Part shown: in pieces, positions 17,947-59,827 of the stretch
How the letters are laid out: the number at the start of each line of letters is the position of its first letter
Numbering within the stretch: the first letter of the stretch is position 1
Source: an uncultured Bacteroidales bacterium
GTDB lineage: Bacteria > Bacteroidota > Bacteroidia > Bacteroidales > F082
Direction of reading: 5' to 3'
NCBI GenBank assembly: GCA_946408345.1
Contig: CAMJRR010000001.1
Span: 1-64,000, forward strand
DNA: 64,000 nt
Translations under genes and position numbers: made by a program
Notes under the pieces: model-generated
Told to the model about the DNA's origin: nothing
Database searches by the model: none
Seen by the model: the letters and a program-made list of their open reading frames with translations, nothing else

Positions 17947-18130
17947 GATTTAAAATTTAAAAATTCAAAATTCGAGATTCAAGATTGGTGCAAAGATAGT
18001 GATTTCTGTTGATAACACAATAACCTTTTTTGTTCTCAACAAGAGAAACTCTCACCTCTCAACTACTCTCAACTCTAAACTCTCTACTGACTCTCAACTC
18101 TAAACTCTCAACACTAAACTCTAAACTAAA
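17947..18130. repeat. Low-complexity repeats between divergent genes
   Basis: The 293-base gap between the dipeptidase and the T9SS protein gene. Bases 17947-17985 are AATTCAAAATTT/AAGATTT-type units next to the dipeptidase start. Bases 18040-18130 are CTCAACT/CTAAACT heptamers. Two opposing -7 boxes lie beside them; nothing coding is seen. Confidence 0.75.
17991..17998 (-). promoter_or_regulatory. -7 box of the dipeptidase promoter
   Basis: The complement reads TATCTTTG. CAAT at 18018-18021 (ATTG on the minus strand) is a three-of-four -33 match at 19 bases. Confidence 0.6.
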
Positions 18131-22255: not shown

Positions 22256-22531
22256 TTATTTCAAACAATCTGCTACGAATGGCATCAGGGCGAGGTGGCG
22301 GGCACGCTTGACGGCTTGGGCAACCTTGCGCTGGTATTTCGTTGAAGTGCCGGTGATGCGGCGGGGCAGGATCTTACCCTGCTCGTTGACGAACTTCAGC
22401 AAGAAGTCGGCATCTTTGTAGTCGATGTACTTGATGCGGTTCTTCTTGAAGCGGCAGTATTTCTTTCTCTTGGTATCGACTGCAATGGGAGTCAGATATT
22501 TGATGTCGTTGTTGTTGTTCACTTGTGCCAT
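22256..22531 (-). CDS. rpsR: 30S ribosomal protein bS18
   Basis: A 91-residue protein; [29 protein letters not shown] and the following [20 protein letters not shown] are bS18 hallmarks. It heterodimerises with bS6, encoded 26 bases upstream, on the 30S platform. Start chosen at the ATG that opens MAQVNNNND. Confidence 0.97.
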
Positions 22532-22557
22532 TTTTCTTCGTTTTTAATTGTTCAACA

Positions 22558-22911
22558 TTAGGCTTGGGCTTCCTCGGCGGCAGCTTCGGCTTTCTTGCGT
22601 TTCTTCTCGTTGTAGGCAATAGCGTGCTTGTCGAGCTTCACAGTGAGGAAGCGCATAACGCGCTCGTCACGCTTCAGTTCGGTTTCGACATCGGCGATTA
22701 CATTACCCTCGGCCTTGTACTCAATGAGTTGGTAAAAGCCCGTGGACTTCTTCTGGATAGGATAGGCAAGCTTACGCATGCCCCAGTTCTCTTCATGAAC
22801 GATCTCTGCACCATTGTTGGTCAGATGATCTTCATACTTCTTTACCGCTTCCTTCATCTGTTCGTCAGACAAAACGGGAGTTAAAATGAAAACGGTTTCG
22901 TACTGATTCAT
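22558..22911 (-). CDS. rpsF: 30S ribosomal protein bS6
   Basis: A 117-residue protein opening [18 protein letters not shown], with [24 protein letters not shown] typical of bS6 and a charged C-terminal tail rich in Ala and Glu. It is first in the operon with rpsR and rplI. A small hairpin in the leader may relate to autoregulation by the S6:S18 complex, which is known in other bacteria. Confidence 0.97.
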
Positions 22912-52951: not shown

Positions 52952-53088
52952 ATGAGATTCCCTGTGGGAATGGAGTAATTCATTCTGTTTCCAACGGCGG
53001 CTTGAGCATGTTACCGGAGGATAATTCATGCTAGCCGCCGATCTACAATTATTTTCTGACTCCATTCCCGCGTCAGCGGGAATCTCAT
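52952..53088. repeat. Nested palindromic repeat, copy 1
   Basis: Outer arms ATGAGATTCCC/GGGAATCTCAT, next GGAATGGAGT/ACTCCATTCC, and innermost CGGCGGCTTGAGCATG/CATGCTAGCCGCCG. About 137 bases, in the gap between the convergent thioesterase and HD genes. Copy 2 is at 56085. Confidence 0.85.
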
Positions 53089-53103: not shown

Positions 53104-54342
53104 CTACAACTCCAGTTCCTTCGGATAGCAAATAAAATGTTTCACCACAGGCTGAGAGAGCACCGAAATATTCAGTTGGTCGGAAGCCTCGCTGATGTCT
53201 TTCATCGTGCCGTCTTTGTATAAGATGTTGATAGCTGGTTTCTTGGGATGATAGGCGTGGTTGGATGAAACACCTTGCAACAACAGAAAATCTGCCTCCT
53301 CCAGCGACCAACCATACATTTTTGCAATCTTGTTCCGAATCTCCTCGATATAGTTTGGGTCAAATGCACTTTCGCGCATCTCAATTCTGAACAAATGTCT
53401 GTCCGTAAGTCTTTTGCAAAGTTCAGAAAGCACGCGGTCAGTGTCGTCGCGCCAGGCTTTCACGGCAGTCATCACGTCGTAGTCGTCCAGCTGGCAGAAC
53501 TTGTCCATGACAAAATCGGGATACTGACCATCGGCGAAAGGCGTTGGGTTTTTCAAAAAGAACGATAGGGCAGGAGTGGCAAACAAGTCGCGTTCTTGGC
53601 TGAGCATTTTGGCGCGTTTCAGCACCTTCATCAGCGTGTATTCCGCGCTCAACACGGCCTTGTGCATATACACCTGCCAATACATGATGCGCCGCGCCAC
53701 CAAAAAGCTCTCCACGGAATAGATGCCCTTCGCCTCGATTGCGAGTTCGTTGCCGACGACTTCCATCATCTCCAACAGTCGCTCCGCGTTCACGCTACCT
53801 TCGGCTACGCCAGTGAAGAAACTGTCGCGTTTCAGATAATCGATTCTGTCTACGTCCAATTGGCTGGAAATGAGTTTTGTAAGAAAGCCTTTCTCGTATT
53901 CTCCTTTGAACATTTGAATGGCCATGTCGAGTCGCCCATTGTGGATCTTGTTGAATTTTTGCATCACCATCAGAGACAATTCCTCGTGCGAAACGCCCTG
54001 CACGATGCTGTTTTCCAAGGTGTGCGAGAACGGCCCGTGACCGCTGTCGTGGAGCAAAATGGCCAATGAAGCGGCCTCAAGTTCCTCGTCCGTAATCTCA
54101 TAGCCCTTGCCGCGAAGCAGTTGAATGGCGCGTCGCATAAGGTGCATGGTGCCGAGGCTGTGGGCGAAACGGGTGTGGTTGGCACCTGGATACACCAAGT
54201 TGGTCATGCTAACCTGTTTGATGCGCCTAAGCCGTTGGAAATAAGGGTGTTCTATGATGTCGAAATGCAGTTCGTCCGGGATGCTGACGAAGCCATAGAT
54301 GGGGTCGTTGAAGATTTTCTTTTTGTTGGATGCGCTTGCCAT
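53104..54342 (-). CDS. HD-domain phosphohydrolase (dNTPase-like)
   Basis: A 412-residue protein of the YdhJ/SAMHD1-like HD family. HTRFAHSLGTMHLMRRA (first His), LLHDSGHGPFSHTLE (HD pair) and LISSQLDVDRIDYLKRDSFFTG (final Asp) give a complete metal site. It probably hydrolyses dNTPs or another nucleotide; the precise substrate is unclear. The start follows a -7 box at 54361. Confidence 0.87.
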   Translation of the reverse strand: MASASNKKKIFNDPIYGFVSIPDELHFDIIEHPYFQRLRRIKQVSMTNLVYPGANHTRFAHSLGTMHLMRRAIQLLRGKGYEITDEELEAASLAILLHDSGHGPFSHTLENSIVQGVSHEELSLMVMQKFNKIHNGRLDMAIQMFKGEYEKGFLTKLISSQLDVDRIDYLKRDSFFTGVAEGSVNAERLLEMMEVVGNELAIEAKGIYSVESFLVARRIMYWQVYMHKAVLSAEYTLMKVLKRAKMLSQERDLFATPALSFFLKNPTPFADGQYPDFVMDKFCQLDDYDVMTAVKAWRDDTDRVLSELCKRLTDRHLFRIEMRESAFDPNYIEEIRNKIAKMYGWSLEEADFLLLQGVSSNHAYHPKKPAINILYKDGTMKDISEASDQLNISVLSQPVVKHFICYPKELEL

Positions 54343-54360
54343 GTGCCGCTAATTTTGCCG

Positions 54361-54368
54361 CAAAGGTA
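54361..54368 (-). promoter_or_regulatory. -7 box of the HD hydrolase gene
   Basis: The complement reads TACCTTTG, 18 bases before the start codon. An opposing TAATTTTG at 54350-54357 overlaps the same region. Confidence 0.5.
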
Positions 54369-54388
54369 ATGCTTTTTTCGTTTAATCA

Positions 54389-54455
54389 GCTTTCAGAAAG
54401 CATGTCATTCCTGCGCGGGATTGTGGGATGGCTGGAATCTATGCTTTCTGAAAGC
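54389..54455. repeat. 37-bp-core palindromic element, copy 1 (intergenic)
   Basis: Perfect 15-bp arms GCTTTCAGAAAGCAT/ATGCTTTCTGAAAGC around a 37-bp core that begins GTCATTCC and ends GGAATCT. Confidence 0.9.
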
Positions 54456-54526
54456 GGCCCAAAAAAGTTGTTCCCTGTAAAACAAATTGCCCTCTTTCGC
54501 GTTACATATCCAAACACACACAAACT

Positions 54527-56080
54527 ATGGACAAAACCACAATTCTTTGGGCTGACGACGAGATTGATCTCCTGAAGCCCCATATCATGTTTCTGGAACA
54601 GAAAGGCTATGAAGTAGTTACGGCCAACAACGGCTCCGATGCCATCGACAACGTGCGCCAACGCCATTTCGACATCGTTTTCCTTGACGAGCAGATGCCT
54701 GGCATTTCTGGTATCGAGGCACTTGAAGTCATCAAGCGCGAATATCCTAATCTCCCCGTGGTGATGATCACCAAGAGTGAGGAGGAACGCATTATGGAAG
54801 ATGCAATCGGTTCTAATATAGCGGATTACCTTATTAAACCCGTCAATCCTAACCAAATCCTGCTTTCGCTGAAACGCAACCTCGAGAATAGGAAACTCCG
54901 CGACGAGAAGTCGACGATGGGTTACCAACAGGAATTCCGCAAGATTAGCATGGACCTCAACAACAACCTCAACTTCGATGAGTGGGTTGACCTCTATAAG
55001 AACTTGGTGCGCTGGGAGTTGGAACTCCAAAAGTCGACCGACGATGGCATCAAGGGCATCCTTGCCAATCAAAAACAGGAAGCCAACACGCAATTCACGC
55101 GTTACATTGAACGCAACTATGTGGACTGGATCCAAGGCAAGTCAGAGAAACCCGTCATGTCACATACTGTAGTGCGCGACAAGGTGATTCCCCGCCTCGA
55201 TGGCAGCGACAAACCCTTGTTCCTCATCGTCATTGATAACCTGCGCTACGACCAATGGAAGGCTATCCAGCCGCTGATTGAGACCTATTTCCGTGTGGAG
55301 GCTGACGACATCTATTACAGCATCCTGCCAACGACAACGCAATATGCCCGCAATTCTCTCTTTGCCGGATTGATGCCCCTTGAAATCCGCCGTCGCTACC
55401 CCAAATGGTGGGTCGACGAGGAAGACGAAGGCACCAAGAACCAGTTTGAAGGCGAACTTTTGGGCGAACAACTGAAGCGTTTCGGCAAGAACATCAAGTA
55501 CTCTTATAATAAGGTGCTGAACTTGCAAGCGGGCAAGAAACTCTACGAACAGATGGCCAACCTGATGCCTAACAAGCTGAATGTCATCGTTTACAACTTT
55601 GTGGATATGCTCTCTCATGCCCGCACGGAGATGGAAATCATTCGCGAATTGGCCGACGACGAAGAAGCCTACCGCTCGCTGATGTACTCGTGGTTCGAGC
55701 ATTCCAGCCTCTTTGACATGATGCGCTTCATCGCCGAGAAGGGCTGCGACATGATCATTACCACCGACCACGGTTCCACCTACGTCGAAAAACCTGTCCG
55801 CATCTTGGGCGACCGTGAGGTGAACACCAACCTGCGCTATAAGTACGGCAAAAACCTGAAATACAACCCGAAGGAAGTCTTCGAGGTGAAAGACCCCGAG
55901 AAGATATTCCTGCCAAAAGTCAACCTCAGCACAACATACGTCTTTGCTGGCGAAAGTGACTTCTTTGCTTACCCGAACAACTACAACTATTACGTCAGTT
56001 ACTACCGCAACACCTTCCAGCACGGCGGCATCTCCATGAGCGAAATGCTGATTCCGGTGACGCATCTCACGGCGAAGTAG
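54527..56080 (+). CDS. porX: PorX-type response regulator with PglZ domain
   Basis: Regulator of type IX secretion. The 517 residues have an N-terminal receiver domain with phosphoacceptor Asp in FDIVFLDEQMPGISG (about residue 55) and the conserved Thr/Lys (MITKSEEE, DYLIKP), a three-helix linker, and a C-terminal PglZ domain (about 205-510) with LFLIVIDNLRYDQWK, TTTQYARNSLFAGLMP and ITTDHGSTYVEKPVRI, the metal-binding residues of an alkaline-phosphatase-like phosphodiesterase. This architecture is diagnostic of PorX. The partner kinase porY is not in the window. Confidence 0.95.
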   Translation: MDKTTILWADDEIDLLKPHIMFLEQKGYEVVTANNGSDAIDNVRQRHFDIVFLDEQMPGISGIEALEVIKREYPNLPVVMITKSEEERIMEDAIGSNIADYLIKPVNPNQILLSLKRNLENRKLRDEKSTMGYQQEFRKISMDLNNNLNFDEWVDLYKNLVRWELELQKSTDDGIKGILANQKQEANTQFTRYIERNYVDWIQGKSEKPVMSHTVVRDKVIPRLDGSDKPLFLIVIDNLRYDQWKAIQPLIETYFRVEADDIYYSILPTTTQYARNSLFAGLMPLEIRRRYPKWWVDEEDEGTKNQFEGELLGEQLKRFGKNIKYSYNKVLNLQAGKKLYEQMANLMPNKLNVIVYNFVDMLSHARTEMEIIRELADDEEAYRSLMYSWFEHSSLFDMMRFIAEKGCDMIITTDHGSTYVEKPVRILGDREVNTNLRYKYGKNLKYNPKEVFEVKDPEKIFLPKVNLSTTYVFAGESDFFAYPNNYNYYVSYYRNTFQHGGISMSEMLIPVTHLTAK

Positions 56081-56084
56081 GGTG

Positions 56085-56217
56085 TGAGTTTCCCCTTCGG
56101 GGAATGGAGTTCAATAATAATGTACCACGCGGCGGCTTGTGACGTTTACGATTAGTAAGCGTTACCTGCCGCCGCTGGCCGCTTTTTACTTGACTCCATT
56201 CCTGAAAGGGAATCTCA
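56085..56217. repeat. Nested palindromic repeat, copy 2
   Basis: TGAGTTTCCC...GGGAATGGAGT, GCGGCGGCTTG...GCCGCCG, TGACTCCATTCC...GGGAATCTCA. Same architecture as 52952-53088, in the gap between porX and tsaE. Confidence 0.85.
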
Positions 56218-56234
56218 ATAATTGACAAAATTAT

Positions 56235-56242
56235 TATCTTTG
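56235..56242 (+). promoter_or_regulatory. -7 box of tsaE-aroB-aroA
   Basis: TATCTTTG, 19 bases before the tsaE ATG. Confidence 0.6.
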
Positions 56243-56261
56243 CAGCGCAAATACCAATGAA

Positions 56262-56699
56262 ATGAATTCCAAAGAGTTTCATATTAACAGCGTGGAGCAA
56301 CTTTCGGAAGTGTCTGAATATTTGCTCTCCATGCGCGACGAAGCCGACATCATCGCGTTCTATGGCTCGATGGGTGCAGGTAAGACCACGCTCATCAAGA
56401 ATCTGTGCCACAAAATGGGTGTCACCGACGAGGTGAACAGCCCGACTTTCGCCATCGTGAATGAATACGTTACGGAAGAAGGTGAGTCGGTCTATCATTT
56501 TGATTTCTATCGTATTAAGAAGTTGGAGGAAGCCTACGACATCGGTTACGAGAACTATTTTGATAGCGGCAACCTCTGCCTCATTGAGTGGCCTGAAATG
56601 ATAGAGCCATTGCTACCCGAAAAGTATATTCGCGTGGAGATTCTTCATGGTGAGACGGATGATGAACGGGTGATTCTTTGTCAAGTGGTCGAAGAATGA
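56262..56699 (+). CDS. tsaE: tRNA t6A synthesis ATPase TsaE
   Basis: A 145-residue P-loop protein required for threonylcarbamoyladenosine at tRNA position 37. Motifs: FYGSMGAGKTTLIKNLC (Walker A), SPTFAIVNEY (switch), HFDFYRI and IEWPEMIEPLLPE. MtaB at 25543 acts on the product of this pathway. Its stop overlaps the aroB ATG. Confidence 0.95.
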   Translation: MNSKEFHINSVEQLSEVSEYLLSMRDEADIIAFYGSMGAGKTTLIKNLCHKMGVTDEVNSPTFAIVNEYVTEEGESVYHFDFYRIKKLEEAYDIGYENYFDSGNLCLIEWPEMIEPLLPEKYIRVEILHGETDDERVILCQVVEE

Positions 56700-57820
56700 G
56701 AAAAGTGATGGATATGACCCAAGCCTCAGAATGCATAGATTCCCGCCTGCGCACAGGCCAACCTTGGAATGACATGCATCCTGAGGCTTTAGAAAGCATG
56801 TCATCCCTGCGGGGGGATGAGCGGGGCATGGGATCTATGCTTTCTAAAGCCTCCCAAGTCTTCATCCTGACCGATGAAAACGTAGCCCCGTTTTGGCTGT
56901 CCGAAGTAGCCCATTGGCTGCACTGTGAGTCGGTGGTTGACATCATCATTAAGCCTGGCGAGCAGCACAAAAACCTGCAAACCGTCCAACGGATTTGGAA
57001 AACCCTGATGAAACATCACGCTGACCGCAATGCTTTGTTGATCAACCTCGGTGGCGGCACAGTTTCCGACTTAGGCGGCTTCGCAGCCTCGACTTACAAG
57101 CGCGGCATCAAGTTTATCAACATTCCGACGACTTTGCTTGCCATGGTTGATGCTGCAATAGGAGGGAAGACAGGCATCGATTTCGGTGGTGCCAAAAACC
57201 AAATCGGCACCTTTGCCGAGGCGGAAGAGGTGCTTATAAATCCAGTGTTTTTGGAAACTTTGCCCGAGCGGGAAATCCGTTCAGGTATGGCAGAGATGTT
57301 GAAATACGGCTTTATTGCTGATTCTAATCTCCTAGGAATCAATTTGGAGAATTATCAAAGCTACATTAGATGTGCTGGTGAAATCAAGCGTGAAATTGTT
57401 GAAAAAGACCCTTTGGAGAATGGCTTGCGTAAAATACTAAACTTTGGTCATACTATCGGCCATGCGATTGAAAGCCATTGTCTTACAACAAATTTCTCAT
57501 TGCTTCATGGGGAAGCTATAGCCTTAGGCATGGCTGCAGCTTTGTGGCTCTCAATAAAATTGTGCGGTTTGGATGAAAAAGTGTTGCAAGATTTTGAAAG
57601 CCAATTGCCGATGCTGCTTTCTGAGGCTGAAATCAAGCTTTCTGAAGTCGATATTAAGCCTATTATGACCTATCTTGTACACGACAAGAAAAACAAAGGT
57701 GAAAAACTGCAATTCGTTTTGCTTGAGGCCGTTGGAAAACCTGTTTGGGATGTGGAAGTTCCTAAAGATACACTGAGAGTGTCCTTGGAGTACATTATTA
57801 ATAAGGTGTCAAAAAGATGA
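56696..57820 (+). CDS. aroB: 3-dehydroquinate synthase with repeat-derived N-terminus
   Basis: Converts DAHP to 3-dehydroquinate using NAD and a metal ion (shikimate pathway). The conserved part begins at VFILTDENVAPFW. NLGGGTVSDLGGFAAST and KFINIPTTLLAMVDAAIGGKTG bind NAD; the metal ligands are E and H in SGMAEMLKYG, LNFGHTIGHAIE and LLHGEAIALGMA. From the ATG at 56696 (overlapping the tsaE stop) it has 374 residues. About residues 10-53 are the translation of two 69-bp palindromic elements, read through without a stop. An ATG at 56837 inside the second repeat would skip them but would also drop the usual N-terminal strand. Confidence 0.9.
   Translation: MRKVMDMTQASECIDSRLRTGQPWNDMHPEALESMSSLRGDERGMGSMLSKASQVFILTDENVAPFWLSEVAHWLHCESVVDIIIKPGEQHKNLQTVQRIWKTLMKHHADRNALLINLGGGTVSDLGGFAASTYKRGIKFINIPTTLLAMVDAAIGGKTGIDFGGAKNQIGTFAEAEEVLINPVFLETLPEREIRSGMAEMLKYGFIADSNLLGINLENYQSYIRCAGEIKREIVEKDPLENGLRKILNFGHTIGHAIESHCLTTNFSLLHGEAIALGMAAALWLSIKLCGLDEKVLQDFESQLPMLLSEAEIKLSEVDIKPIMTYLVHDKKNKGEKLQFVLLEAVGKPVWDVEVPKDTLRVSLEYIINKVSKR
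56721..56852. repeat. 37-bp-core palindromic elements, copies 2 and 3, in the aroB N-terminus
   Basis: Copy 2: 56721-56789, arms of 16 bp with one mismatch, core 56737-56773 (37 bp, reverse orientation). Copy 3: 56784-56852, perfect arms AGGCTTTAGAAAGCAT/ATGCTTTCTAAAGCCT, core 56800-56836 (37 bp). Each is 69 bp, i.e. 23 codons, and the two share six bases. Confidence 0.9.
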
Positions 57821-59025
57821 ATCTGTACTGCGACATCACACTCCCTGCCAGCAAAAGCGAGAGCAATCGCGCTTTGATGATTGCGGCATACGGCGGGTTT
57901 GAGCCTGATTTTGAGAATCTTTCGGATTCAAAAGATACCTGCATTTTAAAGGAAGTGCTGCAAGGACTGCCTCCTGTAGATTCCAGCGCGTCCACATGCC
58001 AACGCTGGAATGACCTAGGTGGAAGCCCTTGCGTTATCAATATCGTTGACTGTGGCACGGCAGCCCGTTTCTTAACCACTTATCTGGCTTGTCATGAAGG
58101 TAACTGGATCCTGACGGGCTCGGAGCGTATGAAGCAACGCCCAATGTCGCCTTTAATAGAGGCATTGCGTGCTTTGGGCGCGGACATACAATATGTTGAA
58201 AAAGAAGGCTTTCTTCCACTGGAAATCCATGGCAAATCTCTTGAAGGCGGCAAAGTGTCCATCGACATGACCCAGAGCAGCCAGTTTGCCTCGTCTTTGC
58301 TGTTGGCCGCTCCTATGTGGCCTCAAGGCCTCGAAATGGAAATGCTCGGCGATCTCAGCTCCTTGCCGTATCTCGAAATGACTTTAGAGATGATGCAGCA
58401 TTTTTCCGCTCGGGTCAAACGGGTTGGAAGAACTTTCGTAGTGGAGCCAATATCTTATCAGAGCCGTTCTTTTACCATCGAACCTGATTGGAGCGCAGCT
58501 TCCTATTGGTATGAAATGGCAGCGTTCAGCGAAGCGTGCGAAATTAGATTGCGTGGATTAAGCGCCCCTTCGATAGGCTCGGGGATTGCGAGTCTTCAAG
58601 GCGATGCTGTCATTGCCGAATGGATGCAACAGCTGGGCGTCGGCACCTTTGTTGACGGGCGTGATATTGTTTTAAAAAAAATCCCAATTGAGAAGCGTCC
58701 GTTGAGCTTTGATTTCTCTCAACATCCAGACCTATATCCTACAATTGCCGCCATATGCACTGGATTAAATGTTGAAGCTAATTTTACGGGCCTTGATAAC
58801 CTCGCTCTAAAAGAATCGGATAGGGTGGAGGCAATGCAAACGGAATTGGCAAAATTGGGTAGCTGCCCGATTCGCTTTTCAGCCCACAACGACCATCGAA
58901 TCGTGATGGCATTGGCACCCCTTTCTATGCTTGTAGGCCCTGCTTTTATTGACCATCCCGAGGTGGTGAAAAAATCCTATCCAGGCTTTTGGAAGGATGC
59001 CTCTTTTTTGGCAGTTAAACGGTAA
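57817..59025 (+). CDS. aroA: 3-phosphoshikimate 1-carboxyvinyltransferase with in-frame repeat insertion
   Basis: EPSP synthase of the shikimate pathway; joins shikimate 3-phosphate and PEP. 402 residues. ITLPASKSESNRALMIAAYGG (catalytic Lys and Ser region), VDCGTAARFLTTYL, LTGSERMKQRPMSPLIEALRALG, SSQFASSLLLAAP and the C-terminal LKESDRVEAM and NDHRIVMALAPL are family motifs. A stretch near residues 50-70 (PVDSSASTCQRWNDLGG) is a palindromic-element insertion in a region that is otherwise short. It overlaps aroB by ATGA. All catalytic motifs are present. Confidence 0.93.
   Translation: MNLYCDITLPASKSESNRALMIAAYGGFEPDFENLSDSKDTCILKEVLQGLPPVDSSASTCQRWNDLGGSPCVINIVDCGTAARFLTTYLACHEGNWILTGSERMKQRPMSPLIEALRALGADIQYVEKEGFLPLEIHGKSLEGGKVSIDMTQSSQFASSLLLAAPMWPQGLEMEMLGDLSSLPYLEMTLEMMQHFSARVKRVGRTFVVEPISYQSRSFTIEPDWSAASYWYEMAAFSEACEIRLRGLSAPSIGSGIASLQGDAVIAEWMQQLGVGTFVDGRDIVLKKIPIEKRPLSFDFSQHPDLYPTIAAICTGLNVEANFTGLDNLALKESDRVEAMQTELAKLGSCPIRFSAHNDHRIVMALAPLSMLVGPAFIDHPEVVKKSYPGFWKDASFLAVKR
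57978..58014. repeat. 37-bp-core palindromic element, copy 4, inside aroA
   Basis: Core AGATTCC...GGAATGAC, exactly 37 bp, with an internal CCAGCG/CGCTGG stem. The flanking arms (about 57964-57977 and 58015-58028) match at only 9 of 14 positions, suggesting an older, decayed copy. Same orientation and reading frame as copy 2. Confidence 0.85.
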
Positions 59026-59072
59026 ATTGTCCAGTTTTTTAGAATTATTGGGCTTGGTATAGAGAAATTCCG

Positions 59073-59080
59073 TACTTTTG
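59073..59080 (+). promoter_or_regulatory. -7 box TACTTTTG of the LutA-like gene
   Basis: 24 bases before the ATG at 59105; ATTG ends at 59050, 22 bases upstream. Confidence 0.55.
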
Positions 59081-59104
59081 CACGATTTTTTTGTAAAGAA
59101 AGTT

Positions 59105-59827
59105 ATGAAAGTTGAGCTGTTTGTGCCTTGTATCATCGACCAGTTCTATCCCATGGTGGCCTCTAATACCATGAAGGTCTTGGGACGAGCTGGTGTTGAG
59201 GTGGATTACAATCCTGAGCAGACCTGTTGTGGGCGCTTCGCCTATCACGCTGGTTTTCTGGAGGAAGCCAAAGAGTTGGGCGACAAGTTTCTCAACGACT
59301 TTTCCTACAACGGACCAGTGGTGGCTCCTTCTGCTGCCTGCGTGCATTACATTAGGAAACGCTACCCGCAATTGTTTTTCAATACGGCCAATCATCTGAA
59401 CTATAAACGAATGGTGGCCAATATTTATGAGTTGACCGATTTTCTGGTCAACAAATTGCATTTTGATGATTTTGGTGCCGAGTTTCCCCATAAGGTGACT
59501 TTCCATGACAGTTGCAGTGCCTTGCGGGGGATGGGGCTTGGCAAGGAAGCGCGTCAGTTGCTCTCCAAGGTAAAGGGATTGGAATTGGTGGAGATGAAGC
59601 AGACTGATATGTGTTGCGGCGCCGATTTCTCTTTGGAAGTCAATCATGAGACGCTGGCCATGGGAATGGCGAGCCATAAGGTGAAAAACGCGATGAATAC
59701 AGGTGCGGAATATATCGTTTCGACAGATATGACCTGCCTGATGCATCAAAAAACATATATTGAGAAGGAAGGACTGCCCATTAAGGTGATACATATCGCC
59801 GATGTGCTAGCCTCGGGGTGGATTTAA
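59105..59827 (+). CDS. LutA-like Fe-S oxidoreductase subunit
   Basis: A 240-residue protein with two CCG domains: C41-C42-G in EQTCCGRFAYHAGF and CCGADFSL near residue 172, plus PSAACVHY and HDSCSALRG. Such pairs bind a [4Fe-4S] cluster in LutA/YkgE and heterodisulfide reductase B subunits. LutA normally acts with LutB and LutC in L-lactate oxidation; neither is adjacent here, so the role is open. The start at 59105 opens the conserved MKVELFVPCIIDQFYP; the longer frame begins inside the promoter. Confidence 0.83.
   Translation: MKVELFVPCIIDQFYPMVASNTMKVLGRAGVEVDYNPEQTCCGRFAYHAGFLEEAKELGDKFLNDFSYNGPVVAPSAACVHYIRKRYPQLFFNTANHLNYKRMVANIYELTDFLVNKLHFDDFGAEFPHKVTFHDSCSALRGMGLGKEARQLLSKVKGLELVEMKQTDMCCGADFSLEVNHETLAMGMASHKVKNAMNTGAEYIVSTDMTCLMHQKTYIEKEGLPIKVIHIADVLASGWI

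Follow-up and report, generated by a model that had tools for sequence, protein, structure and literature searches.

What kind of element places palindromic DNA, in frame, inside two adjacent shikimate-pathway genes of an uncultured Bacteroidales bacterium, and how did it come to be there? The question arises in a stretch of 64,000 nt (the window) with which contig C1 begins; the genome (G000) measures 3.07 Mb and is assembled in 74 contigs. An earlier note, made from the letters of the window, had proposed four copies of an element with a common 37-bp core, one of them intergenic. Their positions are confirmed: the pattern GTCATYCCN{18,28}GGRATCT has exactly four matches in the window and none in 100 dinucleotide shuffles, and a covariance model of the family (R1) likewise puts copy 1 between genes. 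The copies and the genes around them are listed below, with R1 bit scores that are to be read in the knowledge that all four copies belong to the R1 training set.

53104..54342, minus strand: gene flanking copy 1
54388..54456 (core 54404-54440), plus strand: copy 1, intergenic, with paired arms; 76 bits
54527..56080, plus strand: response-regulator/PglZ (PorX-like) gene flanking copy 1
56696..57820, plus strand: aroB (3-dehydroquinate synthase), PF01761, longest plausible frame, with ATGA overlaps with tsaE and aroA
56721..56789 (core 56737-56773), minus strand: copy 2, within the 5' region of aroB; 73.1 bits
56784..56852 (core 56800-56836), plus strand: copy 3, the GTCATCCC/GGGATCT variant; 72.4 bits
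57817..59025, plus strand: aroA (EPSP synthase), PF00275, with copy 4 between '..KEVLQGLPP' and 'INIVDCGTAARF'
57962..58030 (core 57978-58014), minus strand: copy 4, in a variable AroA loop, with imperfect arms; 54.1 bits

Copies 2 and 3 stand head-to-head in aroB and, rather than merely abutting as first described, have 6 bp in common; arms had been recognized in three copies only, and these are indeed armed, but so, imperfectly, is copy 4. Each copy, folded as a single strand, is more stable than its shuffled versions (z-scores -3.95 to -6.19; 0/200 shuffles equally stable); in its most stable fold copy 3 pairs its interior otherwise than in the inner stem of the family. On the plus strand copy 2 is predicted to read IDS...WNDM and copy 4 VDS...WNDL, which bears out the (I/V)DS...WND reading proposed for them, and copy 3 would in addition be read through as MSS...GSM in the frame of copy 2. 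Because the hairpin pair lies very close to the start of aroB, translation of AroB could begin at an ATG within the right arm of copy 3. A search of the window against Rfam returned only tRNA, with no family at gathering score in 53800-59200, and the terminator-like sites in that interval (nine, against a chance mean of 6.4, sd 2.4) are not above chance; both results argue against the possibility that these are hairpins selected by the host for mRNA stability, termination or nucleoid/gyrase binding rather than mobile DNA. Other inverted repeats (CCCCTTCGGGG, CCGCCG...) occupy 56080-56220, between the PorX-like gene and tsaE, and have a diverged partial copy at 53034 (53034-53068).

The core of the family mostly reads GTCATTCC-22 nt-GGAATCT and is usually 37 nt long (22-nt interior, in 93/126 distinct pattern-extracted elements). 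An unpaired tag, GTC, leads into an inner stem, AT(T/C)CC...GG(A/G)AT, which starts with AT and is 5 bp as we defined it; the stem encloses a variable interior, most commonly of 22 nt, and is followed by an unpaired tail, CT. Outside these lie arms of about 9-16 bp, paired in most copies and differing in sequence between copies. In an alignment (A1) of 42 of the 44 non-redundant 37-nt elements, the two left out having a mismatch or an extra base beside the tail, GTC is present in 42/42 rows and TGTC in 41/42, window copy 4 with GGTC being the exception. The five inner pairs form in 100% of A1 cells and the 12 outer-arm pairs in 87.1%, the three outermost being broken in 13-20 of the 42 rows. 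The covariation score of A1, 0.538, compares with 0.161 for shuffles (0/500 as high) and 0.097-0.157 for slid alignments, and four of five pairing measures beat all 500 shuffles; pairs changed on both sides (11 versus 10.0 in shuffles, 83/500) are not above them. Since pairing is kept and sequence is free, the outer arms amount to conserved structure without conserved sequence.

Copies also vary in size and arrangement: G000 holds short cores (19-20 nt), and longer cores with a nested 24-nt piece occur as well. Among 22 neighbor pairs, two of which (C2, C67) look like one sequence on two contigs, 14 are tail-to-tail, four head-to-head and four head-to-tail; of the three such pairs within genes, those of aroB and a topoisomerase gene are head-to-head and that of a group-1 glycosyltransferase gene is head-to-tail. 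The nested piece of about 24 nt, AATGCTxxGCATTCGACGxAGTC, sits in one stem of the element, in frame, in several species and genes (L180, L195, L229, L047/L077; reversed in L160, L196, L213), where it is predicted to encode peptides such as KCSAFDVV or IDWLRRMQSIS; longer forms are found in other G000 copies.

The further copies that the earlier note proposed to look for are plentiful, in this genome and in its relatives. An exact search for GTCATTCCN{12,32}GGAATCTA gives 31 matches in G000 and none for the reversed control, and R1, with 150 of 714 candidates scored, finds at least 75 copies there (E<=0.01), spread over 26 contigs. A loose pattern matches in 41/99 genomes of the genus, with up to 48 copies each and none for the reversed control, a count that includes other REP types with the same ends (most of those in G035, and some in G070 and G078). 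The strict pattern occurs in 2/4 same-genus genomes versus 1/291 Bacteroidales genomes of other genera, where the single match is a different sequence, so that by sequence search the family looks lineage-specific. The local spread between neighboring genes that had been suggested for aroA and aroB is not supported: the matches are scattered over 26 contigs, and the window cores are little alike, agreeing at 9-14 of 22 interior bases beside a between-site mean of 0.46. A viral vector was also considered and dropped, the element having no exact match in IMG/VR. The host bacteria are apparently a ruminant-gut group, judging from the names of AroA relatives: these belong to Bacteroidales assemblies, RUG, yak or red deer figuring in several of the isolate names, and to 'bacterium F082'. 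Could fast-diverging protein loops simply be palindromic by chance or base composition? The AroA loop is variable within the genus and short in distant homologues, as that would have it, but the same core recurs in unrelated genes and between genes, shuffled and reversed controls yield no match, and the arm covariation is equaled in 0/500 shuffles; already contradicted by these controls, the proposal is in our estimate extremely improbable.

Fourteen of the 75 G000 copies lie in frame within 10 genes. Two copies each are carried by aroB and by the genes for a PMT_2-type glycosyltransferase, a group-1 glycosyltransferase and a topoisomerase; single copies are carried by aroA and by GH20, Mfd-like, radical SAM, GHMP kinase (at the C-terminus) and ATPase-like genes, the last of which lacks a Pfam match, has orthologues and is labeled from its GGGKDS motif. 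Insertion into shikimate genes, as originally described, is thus correct for aroA and the 5' end of aroB, but it is not peculiar to them. The count draws on Pfam searches of 16 ORFs over G000 copies plus the two aro genes, other copies being called intergenic from the absence of a long frame; it omits long frames over further copies that lack a Pfam match, as well as a methyltransferase with a Pfam match and a copy at its contig-cut N-terminus. The frame itself is constrained by the core: in the minus orientation ATA GAT TCC..AAT GAC is the sole phase of the 37-nt core free of built-in stops, and the same phase is stop-free in the plus orientation (ATG TCA TTC..GAA TCT). This phase is used by 13 of the 14; only the GHMP copy, with a core longer by one base, departs from it. 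The frame-keeping unit is therefore not the 69 bp (23 codons) of the whole element, as had been supposed, but 39 nt (13 codons), the 37-nt core with its flanking AT.

In relatives the same loops, as assigned from the alignments, are empty, filled, filled in the opposite orientation or occupied by other repeats, and it is from the empty sites of related species that we infer placement by insertion; the comparison is one of presence and absence between species, no insertion event itself having been observed. Empty orthologues exist for AroB, AroA, radical SAM and several other genes, and the empty aroA and aroB sites in some same-genus species, with the short AroA loop of distant homologues, uphold the earlier claim of an insertion family in these genes. 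In AroB, where the species compared are at best 81% identical, both hairpins are present in at least 11 loci among the 33 listed of 43 scanned, L037 with L075 and L038 with L073 each appearing to represent a single assembly. The N-terminus is short in L066 and L072, and its ATGCTTTCTAAAGCCTC, identical to the right arm of copy 3, resembles a deletion scar. At the site of copy 4 the loop is far shorter in distant AroA homologues (L078-L092, 40-48% identical). Within the genus the loop is empty in, for example, L043, L045, L071 and L074, holds a minus copy in the window and seven others and a plus copy in L036, L046, L068 and L070, and in L037 and L072 is occupied by nested hairpins or ones of GTCATACC type. 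In L072, L075 and L076 there are also residues that seem to be hairpin-encoded (HVMPTDEG..) in a second AroA loop, which follows the RL(K/R)xL stretch.

Other genes repeat the picture. The radical SAM site is occupied by this family in 12 of 20 sequences, by another family in two and by none in six; the second glycosyltransferase site, as we read its 17 sequences, holds this family in seven, other repeats (CCCCCTTAAAAGGGGG-like, GCCCTGAAAGGGC, GATTGCTTCG..CATTGCGAG) in nine and a short form in one. Such mixed occupancy suggests that the loops select for tolerance and not for one particular repeat. Several neighboring observations belong here: AACTCT-type heptamer repeats lie in frame at the GH20 and GT39 loops (e.g., L158, L161; NSQLSTLNSQL) and recur in the window at 18071, 26813 and 60481; other GTCAT-type repeats encode VIASEAKQS, CFVPRxDA and similar peptides, which we take to be known REP-derived sequences, in frame at the GT39b site in L184, L194 and L196 and at the Mfd site in L166, L175 and L181; and an insert-free group-1 glycosyltransferase gene (L203) has a perfect hairpin, CCGTTTGGGC-TTC-GCCCAAACGG, at the same codons, with similar hairpins in the insert-free L198, L200 and L202. 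Measured against the MITE pattern of terminal inverted repeats with target-site duplication, the element has arms, and no consistent duplication was seen, short direct repeats occurring by our reading at AroB and radical SAM and none at GH20 and Mfd.

Inside genes the end bases of the element are held at the DNA level by synonymous constraint. In five orthologous insertions 25/25 end-codon columns are unchanged, whereas 194/731 invariant-residue columns in the flanks are unchanged and 537/731 vary, a difference with a naive product of about 6e-18 that ignores tree structure. The rows are those of proteins still reading IDS..ND, with changed-end rows (e.g., L142, L221) outside and only synonymous change considered, and number 9/11, 7/7, 10/11, 8/8 and 5/6 after near-identical ones were dropped; the one differing end codon, TCA in L207, stands in a dropped row. 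Frozen end codons imply that the ends are recognized by something or that cores are renewed from active copies, and the interiors of the five insertions (0.68-0.81 identical), which at Mfd and the ATPase-like gene look inherited, would favor recognition over renewal. The same constraint, with flanks that drift, is what hairpins serving the host would display, as are the many compensatory changes that keep the arms paired and the tail-to-tail arrangement of 14/22 neighbor pairs. Against host selection, occupied sites are not the same from species to species, many stand empty and other repeat families take up the same loops; together with the chance level of terminator-like sites and the lack of a gathering-score Rfam match around the window copies, this leads us to rate the proposal as unlikely.

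At three sites the left arm of an element resembles its own right arm more than the left arms of other species: 0.88 versus 0.51 in AroA, 0.92 versus 0.72-0.76 in radical SAM and 0.89 versus 0.79 at GT39b, the comparison covering elements caught by regular expression (12 distinct ones in AroA; the diverged plus copy of L065 was missed). At the other five of the eight sites there is not enough arm variation for co-evolution to show. Interiors, for their part, can be inverted: the radical SAM genes of two species (L144/L145) have similar arms around one double core of 82 nt that faces opposite ways in the two, with 75/82 interior bases identical after reverse complementation and 36 in direct comparison, and at AroA L036 and L069 are in opposite orientation with an interior identity of 0.82, which barely exceeds 0.79, the 99th percentile between sites. 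The ATPase-like site was rejected as a clean flip, interior identity being only 0.36-0.45. That the arms are wholly copied from the host target, a notion prompted by the AroA and radical SAM sites, at which host codons run on into one arm, was also set aside; by our reading the arm TCGCCCAT is common to the unrelated GH20, Mfd and GT39 sites and missing from empty sites, so that the core moves together with some of its arm sequence. In yeast genes, according to PMC8604942, template switching homogenizes arms and inverts spacers; as arm homogenization and interior flips are the outcomes seen here, we invoke the same mechanism, by which the arms are probably kept paired.

How does the element relate to known repeats? 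The nearest relatives appear to be the CGTC/TGTC-tagged REPs reported from five phyla including Bacteroidetes (Di Nocera et al. 2013, PMC3733652), whose unpaired tag is CGTC, TGTC or CCTC; these have the unpaired TGTC tag, the AT-initial stem, the short unpaired tail, the dispersal, the frequent pairing and some intragenic copies in common with our element. No dedicated transposase is known for them, and R1 has no match at the 33 Y1 transposase loci examined here. By the same source the inner stem is 5 bp here versus 8-9 bp there, the loop usually 22 nt versus 4-5 nt, the tail CT(A) versus CCA and the dominant dimer tail-to-tail versus head-to-head, and outer arms pairing beyond tag and tail are found here and not there. 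In view of the differences in stem, loop, dimer type and outer arms we do not assign the element to any of the four families of that paper. Its tag, stem and in-frame copies, and the want of a linked transposase at the Y1 loci examined, place it near both CGTC/TGTC REPs and Rickettsia elements; that paper equates R. conorii RPE-4 and RPE-6 with CGTC-4 and CGTC-1. The likeness to Rickettsia palindromic elements drawn in the earlier note is supported: in both, palindromic units lie in frame in many unrelated, probably functional proteins (here 14/75 copies in 10 genes, with empty orthologues), though the host phylum is different and here several repeat families reuse the same loops. The inverted repeats inside translated genes of Nematomorpha mitochondria, described in PMC6649704, have both arms encoding conserved protein, whereas the repeat here is an added, variable insert. 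A literature search, mostly without subscription papers, turned up no published account of in-frame palindromes in rumen Bacteroidales.

GTAG REPs, also short hairpins, dispersed and paired, are hypothesized to be mobilized by RAYTs (PMC3733652), and our element might be an ordinary REP/BIME moved by a Y1 transposase (RAYT/IS200-type) of the genomes that carry it. Pfam Y1_Tnp matches occur in 70/99 genus genomes, and in 26/26 element-bearing genomes versus 44/73 others (Fisher p 3e-5), element-bearing meaning at least six copies mostly of this type by our classification, which excludes G035 with its 13 copies mostly of another REP type. Phylogeny and genome size confound this association. The tag is GTC(AT) in 42/42 A1 rows, never GTAG, and R1 has no match (E<=1) at the 33 Y1 loci examined, which represent 32 distinct genes (L033 and L260 are the same) and only some of those in the genus. 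Nor does the one orthologue group followed through the genus genomes, that of the Y1 gene on C23 of G000 (>=80% identity; 16/99 genomes, G000 included), track the elements: it is present in five genomes with 0-1 elements (G094, G095, G099, G102, G105) and has no match at >=80% in the element-rich G033, G066, G082 and G109. After a survey of G000 and the 99 genus genomes for Pfam Y1_Tnp, and of the C23 orthologue, with no linkage at the 33 loci examined, we rejected RAYT mobilization and regard a Y1-driven REP as improbable. The C23 gene itself (22430-22882; L033, L260) overlaps the start of a neighboring frame that reads like DAHP synthase/chorismate mutase, a name taken from its sequence, and is possibly a domesticated transposase.

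We therefore favor, and consider reasonably probable, a lineage-specific mobile hairpin repeat that is related to TGTC/CGTC REPs, behaves like the Rickettsia elements and survives in tolerant protein loops. We posit that the element spreads genome-wide by insertion, as the empty sites suggest, and that genic copies would persist where the frame stays open, the core with AT at either end making 13 codons with one phase open both ways, and where some 10-45 additional residues can be accommodated in a loop or linker, a matter of survivorship. Thereafter a polymerase switching template between the inverted arms would keep them complementary and sometimes flip the interior, and the ends are probably still recognized, either as the substrate of a putative mobilizing enzyme or as a hairpin used by the host. 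A bolder version, to which we give a rather low probability, holds that the ends are actively recognized DNA within genes, that a putative dedicated enzyme or host protein swaps, flips and nests cores, and that the loops are long-lived docking sites; were this true, unrelated palindromic repeats would succeed one another in the same loops with the enzyme unbroken.

An arrangement best known from Rickettsia is thus met in a Bacteroidales genus, and annotators should be warned that IDS...NDM or MSF...ESM peptides in these proteins are repeat-derived. The genus offers a natural experiment: in the 20-30 or so genomes examined the same loops can be found empty, filled, flipped and refilled. It opens to direct test both the upkeep of arms through template switching and how well core enzymes tolerate added hairpin-encoded peptides.
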